DNA of 32,283 bases, taken from Oscillospiraceae bacterium. Lineage in GTDB: Bacteria; Bacillota; Clostridia; Oscillospirales; Ruminococcaceae. The stretch covers positions 1 through 32,283 of the forward strand of contig JAEEXH010000028.1 in the NCBI GenBank assembly GCA_016291435.1. Direction: 5' to 3'. A program made the position numbers and the translations under genes. A model generated the notes under the pieces. It ran no database searches, had not been told where the DNA came from, and worked only from the letters and a program-made list of their open reading frames with translations. This document shows positions 11,776 through 32,071 of the stretch, one piece after another. The first letter of the stretch is position 1, and each line of letters opens with the position of its first letter.

Positions 11776-11780
11776 CCGGC

Positions 11781-16476: not shown

Positions 16477-17212
16477 AGAAACAAGACGCAAGCTGCGTGA
16501 GATGAACTTCGGCGAGCTGGTCGAAGCTCTTGATCTTCAGGAAAAGCAGCCGGAATATCTGGCACTTTCGTTTGATGAACGCATGAATCTTGCTGTTGAT
16601 TACACCTATTCTGCCAAGTACAATGCCAAGGTTCACCGCCTGATCAATGCAGCCAAATTCCGTATTGCAGATGCGGCGCTTGTGAATGTGTACTATGAAA
16701 AGCGCGGGCTGGACAAGGATCTGATCCTGACGCTCGGAACCTGCGGTTTCATCGAAAAGAACCAGCCGGTCGTATTCAATGGATTCACCGGTTCCGGTAA
16801 GAGCTACCTTGCGTGTGCCATCGGCAGACAGGCTTGTATGCAGGGATTCCGCACGAGGTATATCCGGGTTCCCGATCTGATGCAGCTGCTCAGCGAGGCT
16901 TCTTTGGATGTACACGGCAGATCCAAGCTCCTGAAAAAGTTCAGCGGATACCGTTTGTTGATCCTTGACGAATGGCTGCTCAATGACATGACGGAGAGCG
17001 AGCAGCATTTCATCTTTGAGCTGATCGAGCGCCGCTATGACTGCACCTCCACGATTTTCTGTACACAGTACAAACGTGAAGACTGGCACAGCCGGCTGGG
17101 CGGCGGCATTCACGCCGACGCGATCATGGACAGAATCGTACATACCGCTGCGTGGGTGTACTCCGGTGACATCAACATGCGCGAGTTGCAGGCGAAGGAG
17201 GCAGAGTCATGA
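16466..17212 (+). CDS. istB: IS21-family helper ATPase IstB
   Basis: A 248-residue AAA+ ATPase related to DnaC, which remodels target DNA and regulates IstA. Walker A is GFTGSGKS (about 108-115) and Walker B LLILDEW (about 162-168). An arginine-rich C-terminal part with MDRIVHTA completes the family pattern. The start is the ATG preceded by GGAGGTGA at a 5-base distance; the reading frame runs further upstream only within istA. Length is normal for IstB. The gene is intact. Confidence 0.96.
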   Translation: MLSEETRRKLREMNFGELVEALDLQEKQPEYLALSFDERMNLAVDYTYSAKYNAKVHRLINAAKFRIADAALVNVYYEKRGLDKDLILTLGTCGFIEKNQPVVFNGFTGSGKSYLACAIGRQACMQGFRTRYIRVPDLMQLLSEASLDVHGRSKLLKKFSGYRLLILDEWLLNDMTESEQHFIFELIERRYDCTSTIFCTQYKREDWHSRLGGGIHADAIMDRIVHTAAWVYSGDINMRELQAKEAES

Positions 17213-17406
17213 TGGAAGATTACTGCGCCTTCAGCAAGGATCACAAATGCGTGAAATGGGAGGATTATGAGTTGACTCGCCATGAATTGGAAGAAGCCGA
17301 TCGCCTTTGTCACGGCAACTGGATCGAGATCCAAAGACTGTATGCGTACATTGATATGCTCAGATCCATCTTGAAGGAAAATAATATCGATTATCCGGAG
17401 ATGTGA
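17209..17406 (+). CDS. Small third gene of the IS21 element, function unknown
   Basis: A 65-residue acidic protein (MMEDYCAFSKDHKCVKWEDY...), mainly helical in its second half. Its ATG overlaps the istB stop (ATGA), and GAAGGAGG lies 7 bases upstream, so it is very likely translated by coupling to istB. Two cysteines near the N-terminus (C6 and C14) with a Trp/Tyr-rich context could form a small metal-binding or disulphide unit, but the pattern is too short to name. I do not recognise the family. Most IS21 elements carry only istA and istB, so this is an accessory gene. Confidence 0.7.
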   Translation: MMEDYCAFSKDHKCVKWEDYELTRHELEEADRLCHGNWIEIQRLYAYIDMLRSILKENNIDYPEM

Positions 17407-17470
17407 TGATCCGTTACATTAGGTAGGTTCACTGCTAATCGGGGCTGGAACTCCCCAGCGTGCCGCCGCC

Positions 17471-17529
17471 GTTTTCACGGCTTCCGCCTTCATTCCGCTA
17501 CGCTCCATTCCGGCGGAAGCCGTGAAAAC
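17471..17529. repeat. Long perfect inverted repeat downstream of the IS21 genes
   Basis: Perfect 18-base arms (GTTTTCACGGCTTCCGCC and its complement) separated by 23 bases. In RNA it would form a very stable hairpin. No T-run of more than three follows, so it may block antisense read-through or stop transcription in either direction rather than act as a textbook terminator. The stretch from the small gene's stop to the IS end holds nothing else but this and the end repeats. Confidence 0.75.
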
Positions 17530-17600
17530 ATTTATTCAGATATGTTCCTCTCACATATATGGTTCCGAATCTAGGGGGAATTATGAATTCCTCGGCAAGT

Positions 17601-17673
17601 GCTTTCCATATTACGCGCTGGTGCTTTCCGTGAAGCGAAATGGCGCTTTCCGCAGTGCGAAACGGTGCTTTCT
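17601..17673 (-). repeat. Four GGAAAGC-type end repeats of IS21, right side
   Basis: GCTTTCC (the complement of the left motif) begins at 17601, 17623 and 17645, and a GCTTTCT variant at 17667, with exact 22-base spacing. Orientation is inverted relative to the left set, as expected for transposase sites at the two ends. Confidence 0.85.
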
Positions 17674-17687
17674 TGGGCATGAAATAT

Positions 17688-17891
17688 TCAGTCATAGTCC
17701 TCGTTCGCGTCTTTCTCACTGAGGTAGAAGCCGAGCGGTACAGTTTCGGGCTCTTCATCGAAGTTCTCCGGCGCGTAGTAGCCGTAGATTGCCCACGCCT
17801 CATCGCCTTCCTCGGTATCGCCGATGACCACCGAAATGCTGTACAGAAACGCCGCATTGATGATCTCGGCCTGCATTGTCTCAAGAAACAT
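17688..17891 (-). pseudogene. 5' part of small conjugative-element gene truncated by IS21
   Basis: The minus strand reads MFLETMQAEIINAAF and continues for 67 residues to NEDYD, where the first bases of the IS terminus supply a TGA stop. An AAGGAGGA ribosome binding site lies 6 bases before the ATG. The rest of the frame is found on the far side of the insertion. The intact product would be 88 residues, acidic in the middle and ending in a basic, aromatic tail. I do not recognise the family. Its place between repA and pcfB suggests a role in the element's maintenance or transfer. The truncated 67-residue form may still be made. Confidence 0.8.
17691..17697. repeat. IS21 target-site duplication, right copy
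   Basis: GTCATAG immediately after the CA of the right terminus, identical to the heptamer at 14741-14747. Confidence 0.93.
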
Positions 17892-17911
17892 CGTGATTCC
17901 TCCTTGTCGTG

Positions 17912-18964
17912 TTAGGTAAACATTCGGTCGATCCCGTCTGAGATGATGCTGCTGTCGCAGAGCCATTGCCACAGACAGGAACGCATATACTTTGCCATGT
18001 GCCGGATCTCGCCGCCGTGCTCGCGCAGAATCCGCTGCCATTCCTCGTCAAAGCTGCAGAGCCAGCCGTATAGTCCGTCATACTCTGCGATATGGGCGTT
18101 GATCCTGTCGATCACCTGATGATACTTCACGGTCTCGCCCTGATACCGTGCTCTCTCCTTGGTTGCCATCTCGGAGAGCGCCAACAGGATCATGTCGAAG
18201 CGCCGGATTGTCGCTTCATCGCTGTTGCTGAGATAATATCGGATGCCGGAAGCCAGCTCCAGTGCCTGCTGCATGACCTTCTGGCTTTGCATGAAGCGGT
18301 AGGAAATCCGGCACTGAACGAGCAGTTCGGTGTCAAGACCGCAGCTCCGGATGATGTCCAGCGTTTCCGCATCCGAAGCACCAAGCTCGTCGGTATAGCC
18401 CATCGCAAGCAGAATCGCATTGCATCCCTGCGGAAGCGGCTCTGCCGCCTCACTCACTCCCTCCGGCTCAGTACCCGCAGGATTCTGAGAGAGTGAGGGA
18501 GATGAGATTTGATTCTTTTCGTATTCTGTTCTATCAGTATTTAATTGCGCGGGATTCTCCAATATCGGTTTCTCCAACGTTGGATTTTCCAATGGTGGTG
18601 AGCGTTCCACTTCTCTGTCCGGCTGAAAATCTTGGTTATCCGCCGGGTTCTCGTAGACCAGATACTCGTTGCCACCCATTCTGCCGTCTGCGGTGCGGAG
18701 CCGCCGACGGGAGATGTAACCGCCTGCCTCGAGCTCTCTGAGCCCGCTGCGCACGCTGTCGATATTGTCTTTGGAGAGCGCTGTCAGACCGGTCAGGGTA
18801 TAGTTCCAGTCGTCCGGCAGGCTCAGGATCACAGTCAACAGACCTTTTGCTTTCAGAGACAGCATTTGGTCTCTAAGATGATACCTTGCCATGACAGTGT
18901 AATTCCTGTCTTTTGGAACGCGGAATACCGTTCCGTTTGGATGTGGGTCGATTGGCTTTGGCAT
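17912..18964 (-). CDS. RepA-type replication initiator of the conjugative element
   Basis: A 350-residue protein whose first 105 residues (TVFRVPKDRNYTVMARYHLR, LSLKAKGLLTVILSLPDDWN, GLRELEAGGYISRRR) match the winged-helix N-terminus of replication-initiator-A/DUF6017-type proteins of Tn1549-like elements. A Pro/Glu/Asn-rich linker at about 110-170 contains near-repeats (LENPTLEKPILENPAQLN). The C-terminal half is helical and less familiar. Such proteins are believed to start replication of the excised circle. AAAGGAG lies 9 bases before the ATG. The gene heads the operon in view and is followed, 20 bases on, by the split small gene. The C-terminal domain assignment is open. Confidence 0.8.
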   Translation of the reverse strand: MPKPIDPHPNGTVFRVPKDRNYTVMARYHLRDQMLSLKAKGLLTVILSLPDDWNYTLTGLTALSKDNIDSVRSGLRELEAGGYISRRRLRTADGRMGGNEYLVYENPADNQDFQPDREVERSPPLENPTLEKPILENPAQLNTDRTEYEKNQISSPSLSQNPAGTEPEGVSEAAEPLPQGCNAILLAMGYTDELGASDAETLDIIRSCGLDTELLVQCRISYRFMQSQKVMQQALELASGIRYYLSNSDEATIRRFDMILLALSEMATKERARYQGETVKYHQVIDRINAHIAEYDGLYGWLCSFDEEWQRILREHGGEIRHMAKYMRSCLWQWLCDSSIISDGIDRMFT

Positions 18965-19021
18965 ATCAATCTGCTCCTTTCAGATGGAATATATTAAATG
19001 AATTATCGTAAAATAGGCATG

Positions 19022-19055
19022 AAAAAAGCCGCCTTACTGAAATCGTAAGACGGCT
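19022..19055 (-). terminator. Rho-independent terminator or attenuator upstream of repA
   Basis: On the minus strand, ten-base arms (GCCGTCTTAC / GTAAGGCGGC, one G-T pair) around a 7-base loop are followed by TTTTTT. It stops transcripts entering repA from the tRNA side. If a repA promoter lies upstream, it would act as an attenuator, since it ends only about 60 bases from the repA start. Confidence 0.85.
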
Positions 19056-19348
19056 AAAAAAGCAAAATATGGCATTGTCAAATTGCACAAACGACGTGTT
19101 GAAAAGCCTCAAACAGGCAAAAAAAGTGAAAAATATTCATTCCGCATACATATTTTGAGGGGCGTTTCCCAGGTCGAAAGTGGCATTTTTCCCGCAAATA
19201 GGGGCATTGAGTACACGCGAATTTCGTTGTTTTGCGGGACAGAGGGTAAAAACTCAAAGTGAAAAAAAAGTGAAAACCCTTGAAAAACAGCTGCAAATAG
19301 CGAATTATTTTTCACTATTCGGAAATATTTAACAATACCGAAGACAAG

Positions 19349-19391
19349 AAAAATGACGAAAGTGCGTATTTTCCGCGCTTTCGTCATTTTT
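19349..19391 (-). terminator. Terminator of tRNA-Val
   Basis: Arms of about 18 bases (AAAAATGACGAAAG... and complement, one mismatch) with a T5 tract, directly after the 3' end of the tRNA gene. The A/T-rich flanks make it work in both directions. Confidence 0.9.
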
Positions 19392-19398
19392 GAGAGAG

Positions 19399-19472
<74 letters not shown>

Positions 19473-19489
19473 GTTATCGTTACCTGTAT

Positions 19490-19518
19490 ATTATATCATA
19501 TCTTTGCAGATTTGTCAA
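19490..19518 (-). promoter_or_regulatory. Consensus promoter of tRNA-Val
   Basis: On the minus strand, TTGACA (19513-19518) and TATAAT (19490-19495) are separated by 17 bases, perfect consensus, with the -10 box 17 bases before the mature tRNA 5' end. Confidence 0.92.
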
Positions 19519-19926
19519 GTGCCAATTTGACATTTTTATGATGTGCGAAAAATGACGCATCACCGCGCATCTGAATGGGGGCTGCACGGGCATGCGGTCC
19601 GTGATGTTCCTGTTAGGGCGCGGCGTCAGAAATGAGCGCGGGCAGCCGTTTCTTCACAGCAGATCCTTTCCTTCTCAGATACTACAATATAATAGTATTA
19701 AAAATGCAATGCGCAATGGCTGCGGCAGATCTTCCGGTTCCCCGTGCTTTTCAGGCGGCACAAGATGTGGTATCTGATTCCCGGCAGTGCCGCCGGATAT
19801 AGGGCGGCGCAAAAAAATGACAAATCTGAAATATTACGATCGCCATAAAACATATCGCTTTATGACAATTCTGCACAAAACCGGTATTTGTTAGCTGTAT
19901 AATTTGTAAAATGTCGTTGAATCGAC
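19519..19926. other. Non-coding stretch upstream of the SipW operon
   Basis: No gene is supported here. It contains a GC-rich hairpin at 19788-19810 (GTGCCGCC / GGGCGGCGC) followed by seven As, and two runs of ACAAATCTG-like sequence that recur in both flanking promoters. The A-run after the stem would give no U-tract on either strand, so it is not a standard terminator. Confidence 0.5.
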
Positions 19927-19955
19927 TTGACAAATCTGACGATGTATGGTATACT
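19927..19955 (+). promoter_or_regulatory. Consensus promoter of the SipW/BsaA-like operon
   Basis: TTGACA (19927-19932), a 17-base spacer, and TATACT (19950-19955). It stands about 155 bases before the signal peptidase start, so the transcript has a long leader. Confidence 0.88.
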
Positions 19956-19961
19956 AAATCA

Positions 19962-20109: not shown

Positions 20110-20751
20110 ATGGACCAGAACAGCCAGAGCCCGCCGGAGAAAAAGGGCTATCTCATCTATGTCATTGTCCGCAAGATCATTGTATATTTACTGTGTATCG
20201 CCATTGTTGTCGGCGCGATCCTGTTCGCTTCGAGCAGGACACCCGATAAGTCACTGTTCGGATACCGCTATTATACCGTGATTACGCCTTCGATGACGCC
20301 TGCCTACAAGGTCGGCGACATGGTGTTCGTACAGATCACCGATGCCGATGACATTGCAGTCGGGGATGTGATCACCTTTAATCCTTCCGGCGACAGCGAA
20401 GCATATCTGACGCACCGCGTGACCGAAAAGCTGACGAATTATGAGGGAACCGGTGTCACATGCTTCCGTACCAAGGGTGATGCGAACGATTCCGAGGATG
20501 CCTTCCTCATTGATGAGGCAAGAGTCATCGGGCGCGTGAAATTCGGCGTCCCGAAGCTCGGCTATATTGTCCGCTTTGTGCAGCTTCGGTGGTATTTTAT
20601 CCTGCCGATCCTGCTTCTGATCGGGGTGATGCTCCGCTTGCTGCGTGCCTATTTCGCTGATGATGAGGATAATGCAGAAGATGAAGCGGACAGCGGCTCC
20701 AATCCGACAGAATCTCAGGCTGATGCAGCCAAAATCCAAGAAAAGGAGTAG
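20110..20751 (+). CDS. sipW: SipW-like (ER-type) signal peptidase I
   Basis: A 213-residue membrane peptidase that removes signal peptides from a restricted set of secreted proteins. A transmembrane helix at about 22-40 is followed by the catalytic serine in VITPSMTPAYKVGD (S61). The second catalytic residue is His in LTHRV (H102), not Lys, which marks the SipW/SPC18 class. KGDANDSED (123-130) gives the conserved acidic residues, and a second helix (YFILPILLLIGVMLRLL) lies near the C-terminus, ending in an acidic cytoplasmic tail. AGGAGG stands 8 bases upstream. The stop is 6 bases before the BsaA-like gene, which it very likely serves, as SipW does for TasA in Bacillus and for BsaA in Clostridium perfringens. 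Confidence 0.92.
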   Translation: MDQNSQSPPEKKGYLIYVIVRKIIVYLLCIAIVVGAILFASSRTPDKSLFGYRYYTVITPSMTPAYKVGDMVFVQITDADDIAVGDVITFNPSGDSEAYLTHRVTEKLTNYEGTGVTCFRTKGDANDSEDAFLIDEARVIGRVKFGVPKLGYIVRFVQLRWYFILPILLLIGVMLRLLRAYFADDEDNAEDEADSGSNPTESQADAAKIQEKE

Positions 20752-20757
20752 AGAATT

Positions 20758-22065
20758 ATGAAGAAGAACAGCAAGAAGAACGAACGCCGTGCGCTGATCG
20801 GCGCACTGTGCCTCGCTGCGGTGATTGCCGGAGGCTCGACCTTTGCGTGGTTCACCAGCAAGGATGAGGTTACGAACCGTCTGACGGCTTCCGCGGATTA
20901 CGGCGTGAGCATCGTCGAAGACTTCACTCCGCCTGAGGACTGGCTCCCGGGTCAGAAGATCAACAAGGATGTCTCCGCTGTCAATACAGGCAATGTTGAC
21001 GCATATGTCCGTCTGGCGATTCTGAACGATCTGAAGGTCAATGTGAAGGGCAGCGGCGCTGGTGTGGATTCTGATGCAACTGCTCTCCCGACTGCTCCTA
21101 CCGATGAGGAATTTGTTGAGCTGAATCTCACCGCTGTGGAAGGCACTGCTCAGACCGCTACTGCGAATGCAGTTGCTAAGACCGCGAATTCTGTCAGCAC
21201 GCTGCAGGCAGGCGGCACTTTGGTCTGGACACCGGACGGCGCTGTGCAGCCTACGGATGCGCAGAATGTTTCTGCGGGCGATGATGTTACAAACACCGAT
21301 CCTGATTATGATGAAGCTGATCAGTTCAAGCCTACGAAGACCGGTCTCTACATCTTCAAGAGAACTGTGTATGAGGATCCCAACGGCAAAGAAGTGAAGT
21401 ATTCCGGCTACTTCTACGATAAGGATACTGGTAAGTACTACGCACTCGAGACTGAGCCGAACACCGTCTATATCAACGGCATTACTGTGACGGATGCAAA
21501 CAATGACGGCGTTCCGGAGTCCGTTTCCGGCGTCAAGCTTGCAACCACCAAGGATATCACGGTCAGCAATACCGATACCGCTGCGCCGAAGCTGATCGAC
21601 ATCAAGTGGTATAAGGGCGCAGTCGGCGAGACCGGCGAGTCAAACGCGAACAATGTCACAGCAGGTAACACGGCCGCAACCTGGATCCAGCTCTCCTATG
21701 AGGGTGTGACCGGCAAGCCGATCCTGATCGACATCGAGCTGGCAAGCGGCTGGGCGGACAACTGGACCTACATCCAGACCAACAATGATCCGAAGGTCGA
21801 TGACAAGAACGACTTTGGCTACTTCTACTACAATGACATCGTCAAGGCTGGCAACACCACGCCGAAGCTGATCGACAGCGTCACGCTCGACAGCGCAGTC
21901 ACGCAGGATGCCTACAACGATCTCGTCTATGATCTGAGTGTCGTGCTCGACAGCGTCCAGATCGCAAAGAATGAGGATCAGACGAATTACACCAACGACA
22001 CGATCAAGACATGGCGGAACGGTGCAAGCGTCAACGCAGGCACCGGCAAGCCCACCTGGAACTGA
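20758..22065 (+). CDS. BsaA/TasA-like secreted fibre or matrix protein
   Basis: A 435-residue secreted protein with a SipW-type leader: basic MKKNSKKNERR, hydrophobic LIGALCLAAVIAGGSTFAWF, then TSKDEVTNRLTASADY. The segment VNTGNVDAYVRLAI is the hallmark of the TasA/camelysin/BsaA group, in which beta-sandwich subunits form extracellular fibres. The C-terminal VVLDSVQIAKNEDQTNY followed by KTW fits the family's usual ADAIQ...W ending. The long middle part (about 110-330) is Asp/Asn/Thr-rich and less conserved. Codon choice is strongly biased, suggesting high expression. It follows sipW at 6 bases with AAAAGGAG in the last sipW codons. It is probably the major subunit; the polymer itself is an inference. 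Confidence 0.85.
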   Translation: MKKNSKKNERRALIGALCLAAVIAGGSTFAWFTSKDEVTNRLTASADYGVSIVEDFTPPEDWLPGQKINKDVSAVNTGNVDAYVRLAILNDLKVNVKGSGAGVDSDATALPTAPTDEEFVELNLTAVEGTAQTATANAVAKTANSVSTLQAGGTLVWTPDGAVQPTDAQNVSAGDDVTNTDPDYDEADQFKPTKTGLYIFKRTVYEDPNGKEVKYSGYFYDKDTGKYYALETEPNTVYINGITVTDANNDGVPESVSGVKLATTKDITVSNTDTAAPKLIDIKWYKGAVGETGESNANNVTAGNTAATWIQLSYEGVTGKPILIDIELASGWADNWTYIQTNNDPKVDDKNDFGYFYYNDIVKAGNTTPKLIDSVTLDSAVTQDAYNDLVYDLSVVLDSVQIAKNEDQTNYTNDTIKTWRNGASVNAGTGKPTWN

Positions 22066-22149
22066 TTTTATGGCTGAGACCGGAGGGGTCAGAAGCATAA
22101 AAGGCATTTCCGTGACACGGTAAAATAAGCATATGGAGGAGGCTGGCGA

Positions 22150-22911
22150 ATGAGCATCAAACGGTTGATGACTGCTCTGACGGCGGGCCTCCTCCTTTTT
22201 TCCTGTCAGTCTCTGACAGCTTTTGCGGAGGTCGCTCTGCCCGAGGGTGCGGTAAAGGGACTTCCGGAGAGGCTGACCGCGATGGATTCTGAGGGCAATG
22301 CAGTCAGCTCCGATACGGGCGAATATTTCTTCCATGTGGAGGATATGGACTACGGTGTGACCTACACGAAGGATGTCCAGCTCATGAATCTGCGCGATGA
22401 CAAATCGTACCATATCTATTTCTATGTGGAGCCGCTCTGGAAGGACGGCGAGATCGACCTGGAGGAAGGCTGCGACTGCACCTTCTGGCTGGACGGGCAG
22501 GAGGTCTACCGCGGCAAGGTGACCGGCGAGCCCTATGACGGCTACATGGATCTGACCAAAGAGGTGCTGGACTGCGGCAATTATGCCCCGGGCGAGTCGC
22601 ACACGCTGCGGTGCTCTGTGATCTGGAATGATCTCGATGTGCTGGTCGGCGTGGATAACGGGCATCGGCTTGTCGATATCGACGGCGAGCATGTGCTGGT
22701 CGGCTCGCAGGATTCCGGCTATGTCGAGGGTGAGATCGAGTTCAAGTGGATCTTCTATGCCGCTGTGGATGAGACCTATGATCCGCCGAAAACCGGCTTT
22801 CTCGCCGCAGACAGCCGTTTCTGGATCCTCTGCATCGCAGTGCTCAGCGTTCTGACATGCGGCATGATCGTGCTCGTGCTTCTCAAGAAGAAGCGGAAAC
22901 AGAAGCAATGA
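22150..22911 (+). CDS. Secreted protein with PPKTG cell-wall sorting signal
   Basis: A 253-residue protein with a signal peptide (MSIKRLMTALTAGLLLFSCQSLTAFA) and a classical C-terminal sorting signal: PPKTG at 212-216, a hydrophobic helix (FWILCIAVLSVLTCGMIVLVLL), and the basic tail KKKRKQKQ. The body is a beta-rich, Asp/Glu-rich domain (FHVEDMDYGVTYTKDVQL, SHTLRCSVIWNDLD) resembling the other fibre-type proteins in this locus. The next gene, a class B sortase, overlaps by ATGA and is the obvious partner enzyme. I infer that it anchors a fibre to the wall; substrate choice of this sortase is not shown by the sequence. GGAGGAGG-type ribosome binding site present. Confidence 0.85.
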   Translation: MSIKRLMTALTAGLLLFSCQSLTAFAEVALPEGAVKGLPERLTAMDSEGNAVSSDTGEYFFHVEDMDYGVTYTKDVQLMNLRDDKSYHIYFYVEPLWKDGEIDLEEGCDCTFWLDGQEVYRGKVTGEPYDGYMDLTKEVLDCGNYAPGESHTLRCSVIWNDLDVLVGVDNGHRLVDIDGEHVLVGSQDSGYVEGEIEFKWIFYAAVDETYDPPKTGFLAADSRFWILCIAVLSVLTCGMIVLVLLKKKRKQKQ

Positions 22912-23666
22912 AGCGCGGGTTTCTGATCTGCGCGCTGATTGTTCTGCTTGCAGCGGGTGCATACTGCGGCTGGCGCTACTATCAGGCGGAAATCCTGCCG
23001 GAGCAGCAGCTCACCGAAGCGAATGAACAGCAGGAGCAGCTGTTCGACGCGATCCGCCCGCCGGAGGAGTCTTCACAGCAGGCGTCGGACGGAGAGCCCG
23101 CTGCGCCTGAGAACCCGCTCGCAGATGCCGAGGCGGTCAATTCCGACACAGTCGGCTGGCTGACCGTGCCCGGCACACATATTGATTATCCCGTCTGTCA
23201 GGCCGCGGACAATGACTTTTATCTGCACAACGGCTTTGATAGAAAGCCGAATTACGGGCTCGGCTGCCCGTTTCTCGATTACCGCTGCGAGGGCGATTTC
23301 AGCGGGTTCAATTCGATCATCTACGGGCATCATATCACGAAGCAGCGCATGTTTGCGGATATTGCAAAATACAAGGATAAAGCATTTTTTCGGGCGCACC
23401 CGACGGGCAGTCTTGTGCTGCGGGACGGTATACATGAGATCCGTTTCTTTGCATACCTGACCGTGCCGAGCACTGCGCCTGCCTATCATGCGGTGTTCCT
23501 GACCGACGGCGAACGGCAGGATTATCTCGATTATCTCTTTGCGGAGGCGGTCTGGAGCACTGTTGATCCCGCCGAAATCCATACGGATATGCACCTGATC
23601 CTGCTCTCAACCTGCACTTATGAGTTCAACGAGGCACGGGGCGTTCTGGTCGGTATCCTGCAATAA
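22908..23666 (+). CDS. srtB: Class B sortase
   Basis: A 252-residue membrane-anchored transpeptidase that cleaves sorting motifs and joins proteins to peptidoglycan. An N-terminal membrane anchor (FLICALIVLLAAGAYCGW) and an Ala/Glu/Pro linker precede the catalytic domain. Its His is H141 in IIYGHHI, Cys is C236 in LLSTCTYEF, and Arg is R244 in NEARGVLVG. The VGWLTVPGTHIDYPVCQ segment and the insertion between His and Cys are typical of class B. The ATG overlaps the stop of the PPKTG gene, with no strong ribosome binding site, so translation is coupled. It is the last gene of this plus-strand operon. Confidence 0.94.
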   Translation: MKRGFLICALIVLLAAGAYCGWRYYQAEILPEQQLTEANEQQEQLFDAIRPPEESSQQASDGEPAAPENPLADAEAVNSDTVGWLTVPGTHIDYPVCQAADNDFYLHNGFDRKPNYGLGCPFLDYRCEGDFSGFNSIIYGHHITKQRMFADIAKYKDKAFFRAHPTGSLVLRDGIHEIRFFAYLTVPSTAPAYHAVFLTDGERQDYLDYLFAEAVWSTVDPAEIHTDMHLILLSTCTYEFNEARGVLVGILQ

Positions 23667-23692
23667 AGTGCTGCATCCGAAGAACATGAAAA

Positions 23693-23737
23693 AGCACCGC
23701 ACATCCGCAGAGACACGGAGTGCGGTGCTATTCTTTT
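23693..23737 (+). terminator. Terminator after srtB
   Basis: Ten-base arms (AGCACCGCAC / GTGCGGTGCT), extended by an inner CCG/CGG step, with TTCTTTTTCC following. It overlaps the 3' end of the convergent second signal peptidase gene. Confidence 0.88.
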
Positions 23738-24216
23738 TCCTTGCTGAGCCGCACGGAGATCAGAAGGATCACCGCCAGCATGGAGACTGTCACGATTCCC
23801 GCCGTGCTTCGCAGAAACGCGGCCGCATAGCCGAGCTTCGGGATGCTCAGAACGATCTTCCCGAGATAGGTTTCCTCTGTGACAGGGGCGTCTTCGCTGT
23901 TGTTCGCATCGCCCTTTGTGATGATGCCTTCTTCTTCGATGCGGACCGCGCGGTGCGTGACCAGCATCCGATCCCCGGTGCGGAACGAAATGACATCGCC
24001 CGCGCGGATCTCGGAAAAGGGCGTGTTTCGATTGACAACGCAGACGCTTCCGACGGGGATCGCAGGGGACATGGAGCCGGTCGTCACCACATAGAAGCGG
24101 AAGCCGCAGCAGATGAGCAGCAGCAGCGCGGCGGCGGCAGCAAGAAACAGATATTTCAGGACGGTTCCTGCGGCATGAAGCACCTTTTTCAGCGGGATCA
24201 CCCCTTTCGGCAGCAT
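23728..24216 (-). CDS. Second SipW-like (ER-type) signal peptidase I
   Basis: A 162-residue membrane peptidase of the same class as the one upstream but shorter and clearly diverged. A transmembrane helix at 20-37 precedes VVTTGSMSPAIPVG with Ser48. His88 lies in VTHRAV, and KGDANNSEDAPV carries the acidic residues. A C-terminal helix is followed by a short charged tail. It is transcribed away from the 24556 operon and from its own promoter, about 32 bases of leader before the ATG I chose. No good ribosome binding site precedes that ATG, while AAAGGGGTGA lies inside the first codons, so a start some 30 bases further in cannot be excluded. It may process the subunits encoded next door. Confidence 0.88.
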   Translation of the reverse strand: MLPKGVIPLKKVLHAAGTVLKYLFLAAAAALLLLICCGFRFYVVTTGSMSPAIPVGSVCVVNRNTPFSEIRAGDVISFRTGDRMLVTHRAVRIEEEGIITKGDANNSEDAPVTEETYLGKIVLSIPKLGYAAAFLRSTAGIVTVSMLAVILLISVRLSKEKE

Positions 24217-24254
24217 CGGAATATACGGCGCAGTGATATGCGGGTTCCGCTTTC

Positions 24255-24283
24255 ATTATACCACAATCCGCATGGCATTTCAA
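24255..24283 (-). promoter_or_regulatory. Promoter of the second SipW-like peptidase
   Basis: On the minus strand, TTGAAA (24278-24283), a 17-base spacer, and TATAAT (24255-24260). Confidence 0.82.
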
Positions 24284-24429
24284 GTGCATTTTTTCGTAAA
24301 ATCGAAGAAATTGCGCGAAAGCGCGGCGGATTGTGCAGCGCGCATGCGAGCCGGTATGCATTATAGCCGAACCGGTATACTGAAATTCATGCAAATCGCC
24401 AAAACTATGCCGCAGAGCTTCTGCGGCAG

Positions 24430-24458
24430 TTGCATTTTACGCGTATTTGTGATATAAT
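24430..24458 (+). promoter_or_regulatory. Promoter of the adhesin operon
   Basis: TTGCAT (24430-24435), a 17-base spacer, and a perfect TATAAT (24453-24458), about 98 bases before the first gene. Confidence 0.78.
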
Positions 24459-24555
24459 AAACAGTAAGTATATCTGATAGTAAAATCGGATTCTTATACC
24501 CATTTGTCCGGCAGCTGCATGCTGAAACGGAAATTACAGAAAGGAGGGATCCTGT

Positions 24556-25341
24556 ATGACACAGAAGCTCAGTCTGCGCAGACTGCTTCGCAAAGATGAC
24601 CGCAGAAAGCTGCTCATCGCGCTGCTTTTGTTGCTGGCCGTTATCCTGCTGACCAAGGGGATGTTTGCGCTGCTGCACAGCACGGATTCCTCTACCAACC
24701 GCTTCAAATCAACAAATCTCGGCAATATCGTGCTGCTGGAGCCGACATGGGACAGCACCGGCCATGATATGGCAAAGACGGCTGAGCCCGGCATGGTCAT
24801 CCCGAAGGATCCCTACGCTGTCAATGACAGCCAGCTGAACATGTATATCCGGCTGAAATTCACTGTAAATCTCGGTGAATTCGATGCCTCAGGCAAAACG
24901 GACAAATACAGGGAAGAATTCAACGCGGATGCCGATGAGAGAGATCAGCGCCGTCTGCGCGGTATCCTTTCTGCGATCATGCAGGAGGAAGGCACTGCCT
25001 TCGTCTCGGCGGAGACTTCTGCTGCGCAGACCGAGGACTGGACGGTCTTAAGTCTAAATCCCGCATTTGCAGCGGATCCGCAGAATTACAGCGAGGACGA
25101 AGACGAGCTCGTCTATTACTTCTACTACATCGCAGATACAGGAAATATGGCAGTCACCGCACCAGGAGCTGCAACGCCGGAGCTCTTTGATCATCTGGTG
25201 ATGCCGGTCTACAAGAAGGAGTGGCTCGGCGTATTTGATCAGCCCTATTCGATCACCGTGGCGGCAGAGGGTCTGCCGGTCGGCAGCGAGGGTGCCATGA
25301 CGGTCGAGCAGGCGATCGCTGCTTTTACGGCAGCAGCATAA
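24556..25341 (+). CDS. SipW-type secreted subunit, minor fibre protein candidate
   Basis: A 261-residue protein with a basic N-terminus (LSLRRLLRKDDRRK) and a hydrophobic leader (LLIALLLLLAVILLTKGMFALL), followed by HSTDSSTNRFKSTNLGNIVL. The STxxxTNxF then GNI pattern just after the leader is that of SipW-dependent secreted proteins. The segment PYAVNDSQLNMYIRLKFTVN resembles the N-x-G/V-D-x-YVR core of the TasA/BsaA group. The C-terminal MTVEQAIAAF is compatible with the usual family ending. There is no sorting signal. AAAGGAGG lies 8 bases upstream, and the gene is followed after 18 bases by the giant adhesin gene. Family membership is inferred from short motifs. Confidence 0.7.
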   Translation: MTQKLSLRRLLRKDDRRKLLIALLLLLAVILLTKGMFALLHSTDSSTNRFKSTNLGNIVLLEPTWDSTGHDMAKTAEPGMVIPKDPYAVNDSQLNMYIRLKFTVNLGEFDASGKTDKYREEFNADADERDQRRLRGILSAIMQEEGTAFVSAETSAAQTEDWTVLSLNPAFAADPQNYSEDEDELVYYFYYIADTGNMAVTAPGAATPELFDHLVMPVYKKEWLGVFDQPYSITVAAEGLPVGSEGAMTVEQAIAAFTAAA

Positions 25342-25359
25342 AGGAAAGGAGTGTCAGAA

Positions 25360-28300
25360 ATGTTTGAGATCCCGAAGGCGCGGTTTTTGAGCGGTATCCT
25401 TGCAGCCATGATGGCGGTCTGGAACATCTGCGCATTCCCTGCTGCTGCGGAAGACAGCACGGAGACCGCAGCAAGCGGCAGTGCATATACAACCGATACG
25501 ACTGCGGAAACGACTGCGGCAGTCACAACGGCAGGAACAGAGGAAACGACCGCTGTGACCGATGCGGCGGAAACAGATGAGCCCCCGGCAGCGCCGGAGG
25601 AGAATCTGGTATATCAGAATGTTGCGCTCTATCCCGAGGAGGAGCAGGGGAGCAAAGCCGTGACGCTGGACGGCATGATGCCGGAGGGCGCCGATGTGAC
25701 AGCCGTCGATGTTTCGGATCAGTATGACGGAATCGCTGCCTATGACATCACGATCATGAGCGGCGAGACAGCGTTTCAGCCCGCGGAGGAAAGTCCCATT
25801 CTGGTCGAGATCGTGGATCCCGCGATCCCGGCGGATGTCCCTGTCACGCTCTGGCATGTTCAGGATGACGGCACACGGGAGCAGATCCTGTATTTCTCTG
25901 CCGTAGAGGGCAAGATCAGCTTTTATGCATATGGCTTCAGCGTCTATGAGATCGTGAAGGAGGAAGGCACGGCTGCTGCGGGCGGCTGGCAGCTTGTAAA
26001 CGGCATTGAAGATCTGCTGGCGCACGGCTCCGATGGTCTTTATATCTGTAACCCCGGCGGCTTTTTCTTCAAGAATACGGAGGTCAGTGCAAACAACAGA
26101 ATCGGTATCGGAAAGACAAAGCCTGCGACTGCCACACCGCCCGATGCGGCTGTCCCGTATTTTTTTGAGCCGGTCGAGGGAACAACAAATAAAGTCTACG
26201 CCTATTGCTACCGCGACGGCGAGAAGATCTATGTATACAACAATAACAATAATTCCCTTCGGCTCGGCACGGAAGCGACTGCCTTTACTGTCAGCTATGA
26301 CGATACCAACGGCTTCCGCTTCAATAACGGCGCGTGGTACTGGAACATGCAGGGCGGCGTAAACGGCAGCCGGTTCTGTTCCTATAACAATGCGGACGAT
26401 GTCAACGCCCGTCTGAATCTCATGTATTATCATGTGGAGGGCGATGATCCCTTCGGACTGGACGGCAAGACCTACGGCCTGATGTATTATCCCGGCGGCA
26501 CGCAAGGCTATGCGATGATGTCGTCTGAAAATCCGCATGCGCTGACCGAGATCGTGACGCGTGAGCTGGGTGATCCGAACGGTGTGACACTTTATGTGGA
26601 CGAGGGCAGTGCGGTCAGTGAGTGGACCTTTGAAGCTGTGGGCGGAGACCAATACAAGCTTTCGTGCGACGGCGAATATCTCACAGTCAGCGGAAACAGC
26701 CTGACGATGACAGCTTCTGCTGAAGATGCTGCGGTGTTTCATGTGCTCGGCGATCAGAACGGGCGTTATCAGCTGAAATACAGCGGGCAGTTTGTGACCT
26801 ATGTTCCGCCTGCGGAAGGCTCGACCGATCCTGCTTTGTTTACGCTGACGCCGACCGGCAGCACATGGCTGAATCTGATCGGTCGTGCAGACCTGAATCA
26901 GCAGCTGCTCACATTCTCCGCAGAGAGAATCAGTGCCTCCGATCTCCAGAATGACAAGATGTATATCATGTATATCCGTATCTGGAATCCGGACACCTTA
27001 AAGTATGATCTGTATGCGATCGACCGCGACGGTTCCCTGTATCCCTGCTATTCCGAGGGCGGCAAGATCATGTGGCTCGGCGACGGCACAACCTCTTTTG
27101 AGTGGAAATTCACGGAGCATCTCGATGCGGTTACCAAGGAGCCGAATCAATACTACGAGTTTTACAATCCTTACTCCGAGAAGTATCTTGCGCCGCAGCT
27201 GACAGGCAGGCAGATCCTTTCCGATGATACCATCGGCATCAATATGGAAGGCAGACAAAACGGCGACTACTCCTCTCAGCTGGTCGCGTGGGATAAAGGG
27301 CGATATGCGTATATCGGTGTGCGCCCGAATGCGGACAAAACCGCAATTGAGCCCTGCGGCGCTGCTGTCTCCTATCCGGTCTTTTTCGCGACCCTGGATG
27401 AACTGAATCTCACCGACCGCCTCCACGAGGTGCCGACCATCGACAACAAAGACTACGGCATCACGATGAAGATGGTCAATTTCGATAAGCAATCCGGCAT
27501 GAGCTACGGAAATTCCAACGCTTCCGAAGCGACATGGACTTATTTCGGCGGCAGCGACTCCAACCAGATCAAGCACGGTCTGCTTTCCAATCATCTGCAG
27601 GAGAACGGGTATCCTGTCACCAATACCAATGTCGATTTCGCCGGGGCATTTGCCAACGCGACTGAGGTCAATCATCTCTTTCTGGAGCGCGTGCATGATA
27701 CGAGCGGCTATTTTGAATTCGACAGCTGTCAGAATTTCGCAACCCTGAAGGCAACCGACGAAAACGGAAATGTGGTCGGATTCAACAGCAGTTCAGAAGG
27801 CTACGAAGACACAGTTGATTTTACCGTATATCACGAGCTCGGTACGCACAGCAGAAACAATGGTAGCAGCCCCACGCTGAAGCACGGTCAGTTCTTCCCG
27901 TATGATACCATTCTGCCCGGCGTTTACACGACGGCGAATAATACCGAAAACCTTTATACCGCACTCGCAAACAGAGAGAATGCCAATGTCGGTAAGCTTC
28001 CGCCCGAGGATCCCAGAAAATATGAGAAGCTGCACCTGATCCAGACAGAGGCACCGAGTGAGGCAGACTTCTACTTCGGCATGGAGATGGAGGCAGCGTT
28101 CGTGCAGACGCCGTCGGGTCTCGATGCATGGGGGCATGATATTGTCTTCGAGTTCACCGGTGACGATGATTTCTGGCTCTATGTTGACGATGTGCTGGTG
28201 CTCGATCTCGGCGGCACACACTCTGCCGTGATGGGCAAGGTCAATTTCCGGACCGGTGAAGTGACCTTTGATAAAGAAGGAAACAAAACACACGGAACAA

Positions 28301-31300
28301 TGGAAACGACAAACCTGCGTCAGATCTTCACGGATAATTACATGTCCAATCATCCCGGCGCAACGCAGGCGGAGCTCAACACATATCTTTCGGAGTATTT
28401 TGCAGAAGGCGAAAATATCTTCAGGGATTACTCCAACCACAAGATGAAGATCTTCTATATGGAGCGCGGCGGCAACGCTTCCAACCTCTATATGCACTTT
28501 AACATCGCGGCTGTCACGCCGGGTCAGGTCGTTGTCGGCAAGAATGTCGTCGGTTCCGGTGCCGCTCTGCTGGACATGGATTTCCTTGAGTATCCGTTCC
28601 AGATCTACTACACCCTGCCCGACGGCGAAGGCGGTGTGGCAGGTGAGGAGCATCTGCTCGAAAACAACGATGAGAATATCTGCGTGGTCTATGAGAATTC
28701 GGGCTTGCCGGTTTCCTATTCCAGAAAATACAGACCGCCGGGATTCTCGGAGGAACAGTCGTATGATCATGTTTATTTCGTAAATCCCTCCAGGGACATT
28801 GCGATCAACTTCCCGGACGGTACCATTTCCTATCGCATTGTCGAGTGTGCCGTTGACCCGTCGGTTTACAGCACTGTCACGATCAACGGAGAGGCTGTAC
28901 CGCCTGAGCGGGTCGAGGTCCGCGGTACGCTGAAGAGCTATTCAACCGTGCCAGGTTCTGCAACGCAGAAGCCGAGTCTTGCCTTCGACAACCATGTTTC
29001 CGACAATGTGATCAAGGATCTGTTTGTGACCAAGCAGCTTCTCGATGAGAATGACAACGAGATCACGGACGATTCTGTGACATTCGACTTCCGGCTCTCT
29101 CTTTCGTCGATTCAGGTTGCGCCGGAGAATATCCCGCAGGTCAGTATGCACGATTATTATGTGCTGTCTCCCGAGGGGAAGCTTTGCGTCTTTGATCAGG
29201 AAGAACAGAAATTTGTCCCGACCTCGGTCGATTACAGCCGTGAATTCATTTCTGATCTGAAGGCTGCGGCGGAGAATAATACGACAGTCTCCGGTATTTC
29301 TCTCTATGATGTGACATTCACCACCTCGCCGCACGGCGGCATTTCCAAGATTCCTGCCGGATACACGATCTGTGTGCCGAGTCTTCCGGTCGGATCCGTC
29401 TTCAAGGTGACCGAGGATAACAAGGAAGGCTACGGCCTGGTCGGCTACGAGCAGATTCTCGGCGAAAGAATCAACGAGCATCAGCAGCATGAACCCATTC
29501 CTTCCTACGATCAGTATGCCGGACACAATACGGTCAATGTCGGCAGAGTCATCGCGGAGGAAAATCCCCAGATGATGGTCGTCAACAAGAAGGGCTACAG
29601 CCTCAGTGTCAATAAGAGCTGGAGCGACCTGAGCATCACGACCGCACACGACGCGGTGTATGTTGCTGTGTATGTGGACGGCACGCTGCTTCCGGGAACC
29701 GTCCGCCGGATCAAATCGCCGGATACCAGTGCCTACTACTTCTGGAATGATCTTGAACCGAATGCCGACGGCACCGAGCGCACCAGTATGGATGGATATA
29801 CCGTGCGGGAAGTCAAGCTCACCGGCGCCGTTGTCGGCGATGACAATGTCGTGACATCCTATGCCACGCTCACACCGGTCCCGGATGGCGGTACGATCAT
29901 CCTGAATGCGACACGTACACCGGATATGATCCCGCCCGGCGAGACGAATCCGGATGCGGAATACGAGTATGTGGTTTCCGGCGAAAAGGGAATCCCTGAT
30001 GGGACGACCCGAACCGACACCATCACCAACAACCGCAAGGGCGGCATCGCTGTGAGACTCTTCCGCTGGGATTCGACAGTTCCGCTGAAGGGCGGCATAT
30101 TCACTCTCACCGACAGCCAGGGCAATACCGTCGGCGAATACACTTCCGACTCGCAGGGCATTGTCACGATGCTCTATGATTTCCGGAAGAATGAGATGTA
30201 TACCCTGACGCAGACGGCAGCGCCGCGCGGCTATGTCGGCCTGCAGAAGAATGTCTGCTTCCGCGTGGAGAACGACAATACGGTTGCCCTCTTCTATGAG
30301 GACGGGACACCCTGGGGTCCGCAGGACGAACAGGATCCGCACTGGGCAAATAAGAAGAACGGCAGCGACGGTTTCTACGGGTTTGTGGACCTGTATAACA
30401 AGCCGTTCAATTTCAAGATTGCCAAGATGGACAGCGCAGACCACGAACACATGCTGGAAGGCGCGCACTTTGCCCTCTACAAGGAAGCAAAAACCTCGAT
30501 CATCGGCTATGTGAAGAACAAGGATCCGCTGACCGGCTTCGAGGATATGACTACCAATGAAGAAGGCATTGTGTATGTCTGCGGCGGAGACAGCGGCCGG
30601 ACGGTCAATCCGGGCGCGGAAGGCGCGGTCTACTTCCTGAATGAGACAGTTGCGCCGCGCGGATATCAGCGAATGGAGGAAGACATCATTCTGCGGATCT
30701 CCCCGCTCGGTGTGCCCAGTCTCATCAGCGACAGCTACAACGGCAGACTGGTCGAGACGGAGGACAGCTATATCTATACGCTCGATGTTCCGAATACCAG
30801 TATGCTGTATTTTGACATTGAGAAGACGATCTTTGTCGATCAGTACATCCACGACAGCGATCCCACGCAGAAGTTCCTGTTCCGGATCGACCGGTTTGCG
30901 CCGAATGCGACTGTATTCACCGATCCGCTGGATTCCTTCTATGTTACGCTGAACTGCAAAGATCAGGCGGAAACACCGAAAACGCTCCCGCCTGTTACCG
31001 ACCGCTTCCGCTACGATGCGGACAGCGGCGAGGTCACGGTCAGCTATCTTGATTCCGAATCCTACACCTTCCCCGCCGCTGTCTGGCAGGGCACGCAGCT
31101 GGTCGGTGTCACGGAGCCCGGGATCTATCTGGTGACGGAGATGGCCGGCTGGTCGGAGACAGATTATGATTTCTGGGACGGCACCAATGTCTACCGCGGA
31201 TTTGCCGGCGGCGGTGAGAAGCTCACAGGAACACAGACTGTCAAGATGATCGTCACATCCGCGAATTCGTCCTACAAAAAGGACAGCACAAAGACCGACC

Positions 31301-31416
31301 GGCCGACTGCATGCTTTACCAATACCGAGAATGAATACGCATTCCTGAGTTCACAGGCATTTGCAGAGAACAGATTCCGTGTTCCGGTGCAGGAGGAGCA
31401 GGAGGCACAATCCTGA
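25360..31416 (+). CDS. Giant secreted adhesin with fibro-slime and Cna-B/SpaA-like domains
   Basis: A 2,018-residue secreted protein. A signal peptide (FLSGILAAMMAVWNICAFPAAA) is followed by a Thr/Ala/Glu-rich linker (about 33-85), a large beta-rich N-terminal part, and a fibro-slime domain (about 700-1050) with the signature DDDFWLYVDDVLVLDLGG near 933. Cna-B/SpaA-like domains begin at about 1215, 1412 (SVNKSWSDL), 1559, 1683 and 1816. The 1683 domain keeps Lys1689 and Glu1762, placed as the isopeptide pair; the 1559 domain has Arg and Gln instead. The end (RFRVPVQEEQEAQS) has no LPxTG-like motif or membrane helix. AAGGAG precedes the ATG by 8 bases; the GTG nine bases earlier overlaps the ribosome binding site. 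It probably binds other cells or fibre substrates, held by the neighbouring subunits; that is inferred. Confidence 0.88.
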   Translation: MFEIPKARFLSGILAAMMAVWNICAFPAAAEDSTETAASGSAYTTDTTAETTAAVTTAGTEETTAVTDAAETDEPPAAPEENLVYQNVALYPEEEQGSKAVTLDGMMPEGADVTAVDVSDQYDGIAAYDITIMSGETAFQPAEESPILVEIVDPAIPADVPVTLWHVQDDGTREQILYFSAVEGKISFYAYGFSVYEIVKEEGTAAAGGWQLVNGIEDLLAHGSDGLYICNPGGFFFKNTEVSANNRIGIGKTKPATATPPDAAVPYFFEPVEGTTNKVYAYCYRDGEKIYVYNNNNNSLRLGTEATAFTVSYDDTNGFRFNNGAWYWNMQGGVNGSRFCSYNNADDVNARLNLMYYHVEGDDPFGLDGKTYGLMYYPGGTQGYAMMSSENPHALTEIVTRELGDPNGVTLYVDEGSAVSEWTFEAVGGDQYKLSCDGEYLTVSGNSLTMTASAEDAAVFHVLGDQNGRYQLKYSGQFVTYVPPAEGSTDPALFTLTPTGSTWLNLIGRADLNQQLLTFSAERISASDLQNDKMYIMYIRIWNPDTLKYDLYAIDRDGSLYPCYSEGGKIMWLGDGTTSFEWKFTEHLDAVTKEPNQYYEFYNPYSEKYLAPQLTGRQILSDDTIGINMEGRQNGDYSSQLVAWDKGRYAYIGVRPNADKTAIEPCGAAVSYPVFFATLDELNLTDRLHEVPTIDNKDYGITMKMVNFDKQSGMSYGNSNASEATWTYFGGSDSNQIKHGLLSNHLQENGYPVTNTNVDFAGAFANATEVNHLFLERVHDTSGYFEFDSCQNFATLKATDENGNVVGFNSSSEGYEDTVDFTVYHELGTHSRNNGSSPTLKHGQFFPYDTILPGVYTTANNTENLYTALANRENANVGKLPPEDPRKYEKLHLIQTEAPSEADFYFGMEMEAAFVQTPSGLDAWGHDIVFEFTGDDDFWLYVDDVLVLDLGGTHSAVMGKVNFRTGEVTFDKEGNKTHGTMETTNLRQIFTDNYMSNHPGATQAELNTYLSEYFAEGENIFRDYSNHKMKIFYMERGGNASNLYMHFNIAAVTPGQVVVGKNVVGSGAALLDMDFLEYPFQIYYTLPDGEGGVAGEEHLLENNDENICVVYENSGLPVSYSRKYRPPGFSEEQSYDHVYFVNPSRDIAINFPDGTISYRIVECAVDPSVYSTVTINGEAVPPERVEVRGTLKSYSTVPGSATQKPSLAFDNHVSDNVIKDLFVTKQLLDENDNEITDDSVTFDFRLSLSSIQVAPENIPQVSMHDYYVLSPEGKLCVFDQEEQKFVPTSVDYSREFISDLKAAAENNTTVSGISLYDVTFTTSPHGGISKIPAGYTICVPSLPVGSVFKVTEDNKEGYGLVGYEQILGERINEHQQHEPIPSYDQYAGHNTVNVGRVIAEENPQMMVVNKKGYSLSVNKSWSDLSITTAHDAVYVAVYVDGTLLPGTVRRIKSPDTSAYYFWNDLEPNADGTERTSMDGYTVREVKLTGAVVGDDNVVTSYATLTPVPDGGTIILNATRTPDMIPPGETNPDAEYEYVVSGEKGIPDGTTRTDTITNNRKGGIAVRLFRWDSTVPLKGGIFTLTDSQGNTVGEYTSDSQGIVTMLYDFRKNEMYTLTQTAAPRGYVGLQKNVCFRVENDNTVALFYEDGTPWGPQDEQDPHWANKKNGSDGFYGFVDLYNKPFNFKIAKMDSADHEHMLEGAHFALYKEAKTSIIGYVKNKDPLTGFEDMTTNEEGIVYVCGGDSGRTVNPGAEGAVYFLNETVAPRGYQRMEEDIILRISPLGVPSLISDSYNGRLVETEDSYIYTLDVPNTSMLYFDIEKTIFVDQYIHDSDPTQKFLFRIDRFAPNATVFTDPLDSFYVTLNCKDQAETPKTLPPVTDRFRYDADSGEVTVSYLDSESYTFPAAVWQGTQLVGVTEPGIYLVTEMAGWSETDYDFWDGTNVYRGFAGGGEKLTGTQTVKMIVTSANSSYKKDSTKTDRPTACFTNTENEYAFLSSQAFAENRFRVPVQEEQEAQS

Positions 31417-31435
31417 CGAAAAGGAGGTTTGATGG

Positions 31436-32071
31436 ATGAAACGGCGTCACAAACGGGCAGCGCTCATTGCCGGCATCGCATTTATGGTTCTGACACCGCT
31501 TGTCGTGTTTGCCGCGCTTTACAGAAGCTCAAAGCGTGTGAATCCATTTCAGCCCGGCTCCGTGGAGATCGAGGTGCAGGAGAACGGCGATCCCGGCGCT
31601 GCCCTTGAGCAGCAGGAATACACATGGACAGAGGACAACGGCTCCTATGTTTCTGAGAAGCCTGTGCGGATCAAGGATGACCGCACCAATCCGGGCGAGG
31701 AGCTGCGTGTCTGTCTCGTGCCGATGTGGTTCGATCCGGACGGCGGGATCTGCGGTGTTTTTGATATGAGCCATCCGGTGCTGAGCGGCAATACACTGAC
31801 CTATACCGACGGCGACAATCAGATGATTCTGCATCTGGTTGACGGCTGGGCGGCAAACGGCTGGGAATACCGGTCGGACGGCTGCTTCTATTACACCGGA
31901 GCGCTGAACGGCAGTCATCTGACGGTGCAGCTTCTGTCAAGCGTCGAACTGAATGCGGCAGCCTATTCGCTCACAGAGGACTATGAGCTGCAGCTCGATG
32001 TCCTTGCGGACGCGATCCAGAGCAGCGGCAGCGCGGCTTCAACGAGAGAGTGGGCAGCGCATACACCGTGA
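31436..32071 (+). CDS. SipW-type secreted subunit, second minor fibre protein candidate
   Basis: A 211-residue protein with a basic start (MKRRHKRAALIAG) and hydrophobic leader (IAFMVLTPLVVFAAL), then YRSSKRVNPFQPGSVEIEV, which parallels the S-x-x-x-x-N-x-F-x-x-G-x-V-x-I-x-V sequence after the leader of SipW substrates. The C-terminal LADAIQSSGSAASTREW matches the family's ADAIQ...A...W ending well. There is no sorting signal. The ATG I use follows AAGGAGG at 8 bases, with an out-of-frame ATG between. It is the last gene of the operon, 19 bases after the adhesin. A role as a cap or adaptor is possible. Confidence 0.78.
   Translation: MKRRHKRAALIAGIAFMVLTPLVVFAALYRSSKRVNPFQPGSVEIEVQENGDPGAALEQQEYTWTEDNGSYVSEKPVRIKDDRTNPGEELRVCLVPMWFDPDGGICGVFDMSHPVLSGNTLTYTDGDNQMILHLVDGWAANGWEYRSDGCFYYTGALNGSHLTVQLLSSVELNAAAYSLTEDYELQLDVLADAIQSSGSAASTREWAAHTP

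Follow-up and report, generated by a model that had tools for sequence, protein, structure and literature searches.

Positions 20110 to 32071 of the stretch of DNA analysed here (contig JAEEXH010000028.1 of Oscillospiraceae bacterium, assembly GCA_016291435.1) hold the eight-gene surface-fibre locus of a rumen bacterium. The whole stretch of 32,283 nucleotides is called the window, all coordinates refer to its forward strand unless another locus is named, and the host genome consists of 155 contigs; L numbers denote loci and G numbers genomes. The genes lie in the order sipW1, bsaA, ppktg, srtB, sipW2 (minus strand), subM, giant and subC (Table 1). An earlier note on this DNA had described the gene set at this place, and all eight open reading frames (ORFs) were indeed located there; its interpretation, a SipW-processed fibre with a sortase-fixed base, was supported in part. 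The gene set is not a product of chance, since the same order recurs in other genomes.

Table 1 Features of the surface-fibre locus in the window
Feature	Position	Strand	Basis or remark
Sigma-70-like promoter upstream of sipW1	19927..19955	+	TTGACA-17-TATACT, read by eye
sipW1, SipW/ER-type signal peptidase, 213 aa	20110..20751	+	TIGR02228 over cut-off; motifs TPSM, LTHR, TKGDAN
bsaA, BsaA-family SipW-dependent fibre subunit, 435 aa	20758..22065	+	TIGR04090 over cut-off, TIGR04088
Mature N-terminus of BsaA, putative donor strand FAWFTSKDEVTNRL	20842..20883	+	
ppktg, wall protein with conventional-looking signal peptide, 253 aa	22150..22911	+	no family over a cut-off
PPKTG sorting motif	22783..22797	+	
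srtB, class B-like sortase	22908..23666	+	likely start; ORF could begin at 22857
sipW2, second SipW-type peptidase, 162 aa	23728..24216	-	TIGR02228
subM, second subunit, 261 aa	24556..25341	+	position conserved, bsaA-like; no library match over a cut-off
Mature N-terminus of SubM FALLHSTDSSTNRF	24664..24705	+	
giant, secreted putative adhesin	25351..31416	+	2,021 aa from GTG 25351; 2,018 aa from ATG 25360
C-terminal docking module of the giant	30808..31335	+	common to giants otherwise unlike it
Donor-strand-like tail of the giant YAFLSSQAFAENRF	31336..31377	+	profile of subunit N-termini
subC, third subunit, 211 aa, directly 3' of giant	31436..32071	+	weak TIGR04090

Both SipW-type peptidases named in the earlier note were confirmed. 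SipW1 (85.8 bits) and SipW2 (81.1 bits) exceed the TIGR02228 cut-off of 51.85 bits, and they are the only ones to do so among the four SipW-type matches in the whole genome. The minus-strand position of sipW2 had not been mentioned; the gene also runs opposite to its neighbours in a second block of L028 and in one of the copies in L094, but it points the same way as they do in L012, L025, L035 and L095. The claim of three SipW-type subunits is firm for BsaA and only probable for SubM and SubC. BsaA belongs to the BsaA family (TIGR04090, 97.6 bits; cut-off 60) and alone carries the SipW-type signal TIGR04088 (24.3 bits; cut-off 19), with a SipW gene adjoining. SubC scored 21.3 bits against TIGR04090, under the cut-off, and in library profile scans SubM matched neither TIGR04090 nor any family over a cut-off; SubM is taken as a probable subunit from its similarity to the bsaA profile and from its N-terminus. 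PDB sequence searches gave no match at E ≤ 1 for BsaA or SubC.

The PPKTG protein ends in PPKTG, a hydrophobic stretch and KKKRKQKQ, in agreement with the (S/P)PXTG pattern of SrtB substrates, and xPxTG is present in 17 of 19 intact C-termini of PPKTG proteins (the exceptions are PPKIG in L059 and LPKTN in L108). The stop codon of ppktg and the likely start of srtB share an ATGA at 22908–22911. The best match of the sortase is the class B profile TIGR03064 (E = 5.7e-41), with scores under the curated cut-offs of both this profile (140.4 against 153.75 bits) and Pfam Sortase (24.9 against 26.6), and we therefore call it class B-like. The active-site His, Cys and Arg are present in IYGHH, LSTCT and the R in STCTYEFNEARGVLVG. 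The AlphaFold2 (AF2) model of the PPKTG protein is a beta-sandwich with TasA among the best, weakly resembling, structural matches, and its sequence gave weak matches only in the PDB, to unrelated proteins such as levansucrase. The protein was matched in 11 of 297 family genomes including its own, one match (G026) being weak and partial, and in none of the four other genomes of the same genus within this search; the system is thus patchy. One scan of viral_contigs found no relative.

The giant contains two SpaA (Cna-B) stretches (62.6 bits) and a fibro-slime/PA14 stretch (Fibro_Slime, 47.3 bits), and its residues 679–2021 are 100% identical to a public record from the metagenome-assembled genome Oscillospiraceae bacterium Tb.RUG.209. 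No LPxTG-type signal was found at its C-terminus, either by reading the sequence or by a motif scan of the identical end of L009. The model for sortase-assembled pilins, NF033902, gave 42.8 bits against a cut-off of 95, and a sortase-polymerised pilus was rejected because the giant has no sorting signal. The description of the giant as an adhesin without its own anchor was correct in this respect, but it had missed a subunit-like tail in the place of the anchor.

A search for relatives of the giant found 29 loci. Giants from SipW loci end in a tail right after the last Cna-B-like strand, namely YAFLSSQAFAENRF in the window, FAYLSAQAYAENTI in L012 and YAYLTSQAWAKNSI in L035. By contrast, in 16 of 19 relatives without SipW genes in the stretch available (L020, L030 and L033 are on short contigs) the C-terminus consists, as read by eye, of [ILV]PTG or LPxTG, then a hydrophobic stretch and positive residues, and the giants of L010, L011 and L018 have a similar end without this motif. 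These 19 proteins, L034 among them, were used as controls. L034 and L015 had been considered as SipW-linked giants and were rejected, as their sipW2 matches are weak (6e-6 and 1e-5) and the matching protein of L034 looks like a standard signal peptidase. A sortase of another group is found near the giant in 13 SipW-free loci (L010, L011, L013, L016, L018, L019, L021, L023, L024, L026, L027, L029 and L031), most of whose giants have the [ILV]PTG-type end, and these loci represent a parallel, SipW-free system. A large protein near subM in L061 and L063 has no Pfam match and yet the same C-terminal module and tail. With a profile of this module, matches were obtained in 13 of 396 genomes of the family, of which the one in G395 is probably false, and in 3 of 391 genomes of the class; both counts include the genome of the window. 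Two loci, L102 (G395, a weak match) and L099 (G143, a broken fragment), were not counted as tailed giants. The subC gene is also found 3' of tailed giants elsewhere, for example in L012, L025, L094, L095, L100, L103, L110 and L111. In L110 (3665–5068) and L111 (13747–15153), both from one other genome, subC is followed by a further gene, whose 468–469-residue product has a C-terminus that is hydrophobic and positive and may be an alternative base protein.

In the TasA fibre of Bacillus subtilis, the mature N-terminus of one subunit (residues 28–38) completes the next one, with hydrophobic contacts through F29, I32 and F39 (PMC9674648). The N-terminus of the accessory protein TapA resembles this strand and is thought to start the fibre (PMC9674648, PMC10151520). 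When the N-termini of BsaA (FAWFTSKDEVTNRL) and SubM (FALLHSTDSSTNRF) were aligned with the tail of the giant without gaps, they had in common an aromatic or hydrophobic start, a serine and N-x-hydrophobic at the end. To train a profile we used 25 distinct N-termini, all from BsaA or SubM proteins that follow the regular motif. As 28 subunit rows without this motif, 20 of them SubC, were skipped, the regular motif is what the profile describes; the one fitting SubC row was kept out of the profile used for counts, and the copies L008, L009, L032 and L093 were omitted. The window tail ranked first among 2,008 positions of the giant and, in a second run, first among 1,948; it scored 14.7 with a SubM profile and 8.4 with a BsaA profile. 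In the first run the tail outranked every other position in 10 of the 15 tailed giants. The second run used a different background, with the last 80 residues as the target, and here rank 1 was reached in 8 of 15 family giants (L057 included), in 5 of 8 SipW-linked giants of other families, which had been chosen after their C-termini had been read, and in none of the 19 controls. L103, L105, L106, L108 and L110 belong to five other families.

Column-shuffled profiles reached the observed total in 0 of 2,000 trials for the eight giants of other families and in 11 of 2,000 for 12 family giants (the 15 without L028, L057 and L097), whose number overstates the evidence because they are related. When the test was turned round and the profile was built from 12 tails, the subunit N-terminus came out at rank 1 in 23 of 35 subunits and at rank 3 or better in 33. 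We also made a rule-based count of closed ORFs of at least 800 amino acids with a hydrophobic stretch near the start and not shadowed by a longer ORF. At P ≤ 0.05, 14 of 26 such proteins within 2.5 kb of a SipW-system match scored, against 2 of 30 others. The 14 include L111, where the scoring stretch differs from the tail seen by eye; four of the 26 (L034, L101, L112 and L114) do not belong to this kind of giant, and the two others are L098, with SipW elsewhere in its genome, and L116. The giant of L104 (G723), dismissed at first, ends in WKWLSDTAAAINQFTN (P = 0.096), and its genome has SipW on another contig. By these tests, the tail is a segment resembling the putative donor strand of the subunits, as would be expected of a terminal protein in a TapA-like role.

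Several observations weigh against this assignment. A 3,054-residue giant beside ppktg and srtB in L057 has neither tail nor anchor, and a tailed giant of the same genome lies on another contig, L096. The tails of L063, L096 and L097 score poorly, those of L108 and L109 match chiefly in their N-x-F end, the tail of L111 is seen by eye only while another stretch scores higher, and that of L123 is shifted by one residue. The SubC N-termini depart from the regular motif. It could also be argued that the tail is the last strand, or a linker, of the final Cna-B-like domain, that its likeness to the subunits is convergent and that the giant is released or loosely bound. The tail does lie directly 3' of a strand ending in FTNT, and the AF2 model that covers it, in which it falls in the unstructured end, was built on five sequences. 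However, the last strand of the model (167–172) stops before the tail, and the likeness is seen again in other families but in none of the 19 homologous controls; shuffled profiles likewise failed to reproduce it in the other-family set. We consider this explanation quite unlikely.

The tail might instead be a recognition site for SipW, serving in processing or hand-over and not as a structural strand, given that the shared residues start at about the SipW cut expected for the subunits (a site deduced from TasA). The subunits, however, would be cut after a membrane segment, and by eye no such segment precedes the tail in the window giant, L061 and L063. The matched positions also extend far into the mature part, to N-x-hydrophobic, and in L105 (DSWFRDETETDNFF) and L106 (DSWFRDETEADNYF) the strand-like segment is followed by 46 and 52 further residues. 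A recognition site therefore seems very improbable, and a donor-like strand is the reading we keep.

The earlier note had proposed a search for co-occurrence of the gene types, and conserved linkage, whose absence would have refuted its proposal, was found. Gene types were assigned by profiles at E ≤ 1e-5 in a census of 70 loci, nine of which contain all eight together (the window, L025, L028, L035, L095, L059, L061, L063 and L097); the giants of L059, L061, L063 and L097 were recognised only through the C-terminal module, and the frame of that in L059 is broken. Among the 29 loci with relatives of the giant, SipW genes surround it in four. L025, L028 (Ruminococcus flavefaciens FD-1) and L035 have the eight genes in the order of the window with sipW2 on the plus strand, and L012 is the same locus without srtB. 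L009 and L032 correspond to shorter fragments of loci of this kind, and L095 is a further complete set. A sortase of this type is present in 12 of 20 ppktg loci, and the 13 srtB copies from these 12 loci separated from the 13 sortases of SipW-free loci with 100/100 support in a tree, which carries a long-branch warning. L028 also has a second bsaA-ppktg-srtB-sipW2(minus) block at 21544–25717 with ppktg in pieces, and the first half of its srtB is the same as in the other copy, as after gene conversion. L101 (2340–3945; G108, same genus) is a remnant of the locus, in which the start of sipW1 runs into giant-like sequence and the tail is still readable.

This linkage bears on whether the locus holds one system or two, that is, a SipW fibre with its own adhesin next to a PPKTG protein and sortase unrelated to the fibre. 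For the latter speak the eight of 20 ppktg loci that have no srtB, the genomes G019 and G143, in which the tailed giant and the ppktg part are on separate contigs, and the finding that loss of srtB had no effect on BsaA in Clostridium perfringens (PMC7395162). Against it, a SipW or BsaA-type gene is present in all of the 20 ppktg loci but one, L058, which runs into a contig end, ppktg directly adjoins bsaA in most of these loci, and TasA is among the best matches of the PPKTG-protein model. Two independent systems thus appear rather unlikely. A single system is supported by the conserved linkage and the one sortase group; a sortase-fixed base is plausible because SrtB of Clostridioides difficile cleaves a PPKTG motif and ties it to meso-diaminopimelic acid (PMC4591827) and because the model is weakly TasA-like, and the contact between the PPKTG protein and the fibre is one that we infer.

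We think it probable that the locus encodes a SipW-type (TasA/BsaA-like) surface fibre with dedicated ends, a giant end adhesin held by donor-strand complementation and a PPKTG base fixed by sortase. SipW1 and SipW2 would trim BsaA, SubM and SubC, and the trimmed N-terminus of each subunit would be the strand that completes the beta-sandwich of its neighbour. The giant would be exported by the ordinary Sec route, and its tail, a copy of the donor strand, would occupy the groove left open in an end subunit, which might be SubC or the usual acceptor of SubM. By analogy with TasA and TapA, the tail would provide the first strand, and a donor without an acceptor should sit at one end of the fibre. 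By eye, the signal peptide of the PPKTG protein looks conventional and its N-terminus is not donor-like. The protein could therefore take part only as the acceptor of a strand, at the other end; it may be a TasA-like domain that lacks a donor strand but has a sorting signal, through which the adjoining sortase would tie it to peptidoglycan. The resulting fibre would be fixed covalently at its base and carry an adhesive tip that can be exchanged.

The TasA/TapA/SipW system of B. subtilis has in common with this locus the SipW peptidase, subunits with a SipW signal whose mature N-terminus is a donor strand, and, in TapA, an accessory protein whose strand is like that of TasA (PMC9674648, PMC10151520). 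Here, the strand-like segment is at the C-terminus of a 2,018-residue adhesin, and a sortase and a wall-sorted protein are added. In C. perfringens, the sipW-bsaABCRSD operon with srtB upstream likewise combines a BsaA-family subunit, SipW and a neighbouring srtB; loss of srtB altered neither the BsaA protein profile nor pellicles, and the sortase was dispensable for BsaA polymers (PMC7395162). This fits a role at the base, or no role, and not that of a polymerase. That operon includes a two-component system, whereas none is found in the window, where the contig ends 212 bases after subC, and the accessible text of the report does not mention a PPxTG gene or a giant (PMC7395162). SrtB of C. 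difficile has (S/P)PXTG substrates, in line with the PPKTG motif and the sortase best matched to class B, but these are encoded outside the srtB operon and include Cna-B adhesins (PMC4591827); the likely substrate here is small, perhaps TasA-like, and its gene overlaps srtB. The TasA-CalY-CapP system of Bacillus cereus also has SipW-type subunits and a wall-associated helper, and it is sortase-independent (PMC13082335). CapP differs in its N-domain, predicted to be helical, and its C-domain of QKKV/AEE repeats, and no giant or sorting signal is mentioned in the accessible part of that source. Sortase-assembled Cna-B pili of the SpaA type resemble the giant in their Cna-B/SpaA domains, but the giant has no sorting signal and the sortase is matched best to class B, not to a pilus sortase. 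In chaperone-usher pili, a tip adhesin of the FimH type is joined by donor-strand complementation, the adhesin accepting the strand. The principle would be the same in this locus, but with the adhesin giving the strand, and no homology is claimed.

The earlier note knew of no described system with exactly this set. Pairing of SipW and BsaA with srtB has already been published for C. perfringens (PMC7395162) and is not new by itself; the subunit-like tail on the giant appears to be new. Searches confined to an open-access library of papers, some of which yielded mainly unrelated articles, found no description of such a tail on an exchangeable giant. With slightly less assurance than for the locus itself, we lean towards the view that in many Bacillota the SipW fibres are pili whose giant tip adhesins can be exchanged, the C-terminal copy of the donor strand acting as a sorting signal for the fibre as LPxTG does for the wall; they would be a Gram-positive counterpart of the chaperone-usher tip adhesins in which the adhesin is the donor of the strand. 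The usual view of TasA-type fibres is that they form biofilm matrix. If giants do dock by a C-terminal donor strand, these fibres would be organelles of adhesion whose tips can be exchanged, the anchorless giants that belong to SipW fibres in gut and rumen Clostridia could be predicted from a short motif, and the PPxTG base would be a testable candidate for fixing such fibres to the wall. R. flavefaciens FD-1, in which the whole set is present (L028), is a known degrader of plant fibre and thus a suitable strain for studying attachment to this material.

Upstream of sipW1, two promoter-like sites at 19489–19520 and 19925–19956 point in opposite directions, facing the tRNA gene and sipW1, and are 78% complementary (TTGACAAATCTG); perhaps they share a regulator. 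An invertible promoter was rejected, as these inverted repeats read by eye as the two promoter-like sites. A riboswitch was likewise rejected, since Rfam gave only the tRNA at gathering scores and chance-level matches below them, and the upstream regions of sipW1 loci gave no useful alignment. Further upstream, positions 915–19472 carry conjugation-type genes (TraG P-loop, TrbL, coupling protein, CD1107-like, topoisomerase) and a gene for an HTH_36 protein, with an IS21 element at 14863–17212 and a tRNA-Val gene at 19398–19472 on the minus strand; the fibre locus borders this putative integrative element. In L064, from another genome, a protein that by eye is like the HTH_36 protein of the window is encoded directly 3' of a SipW locus (7193–8218), a hint that SipW loci travel with mobile elements.

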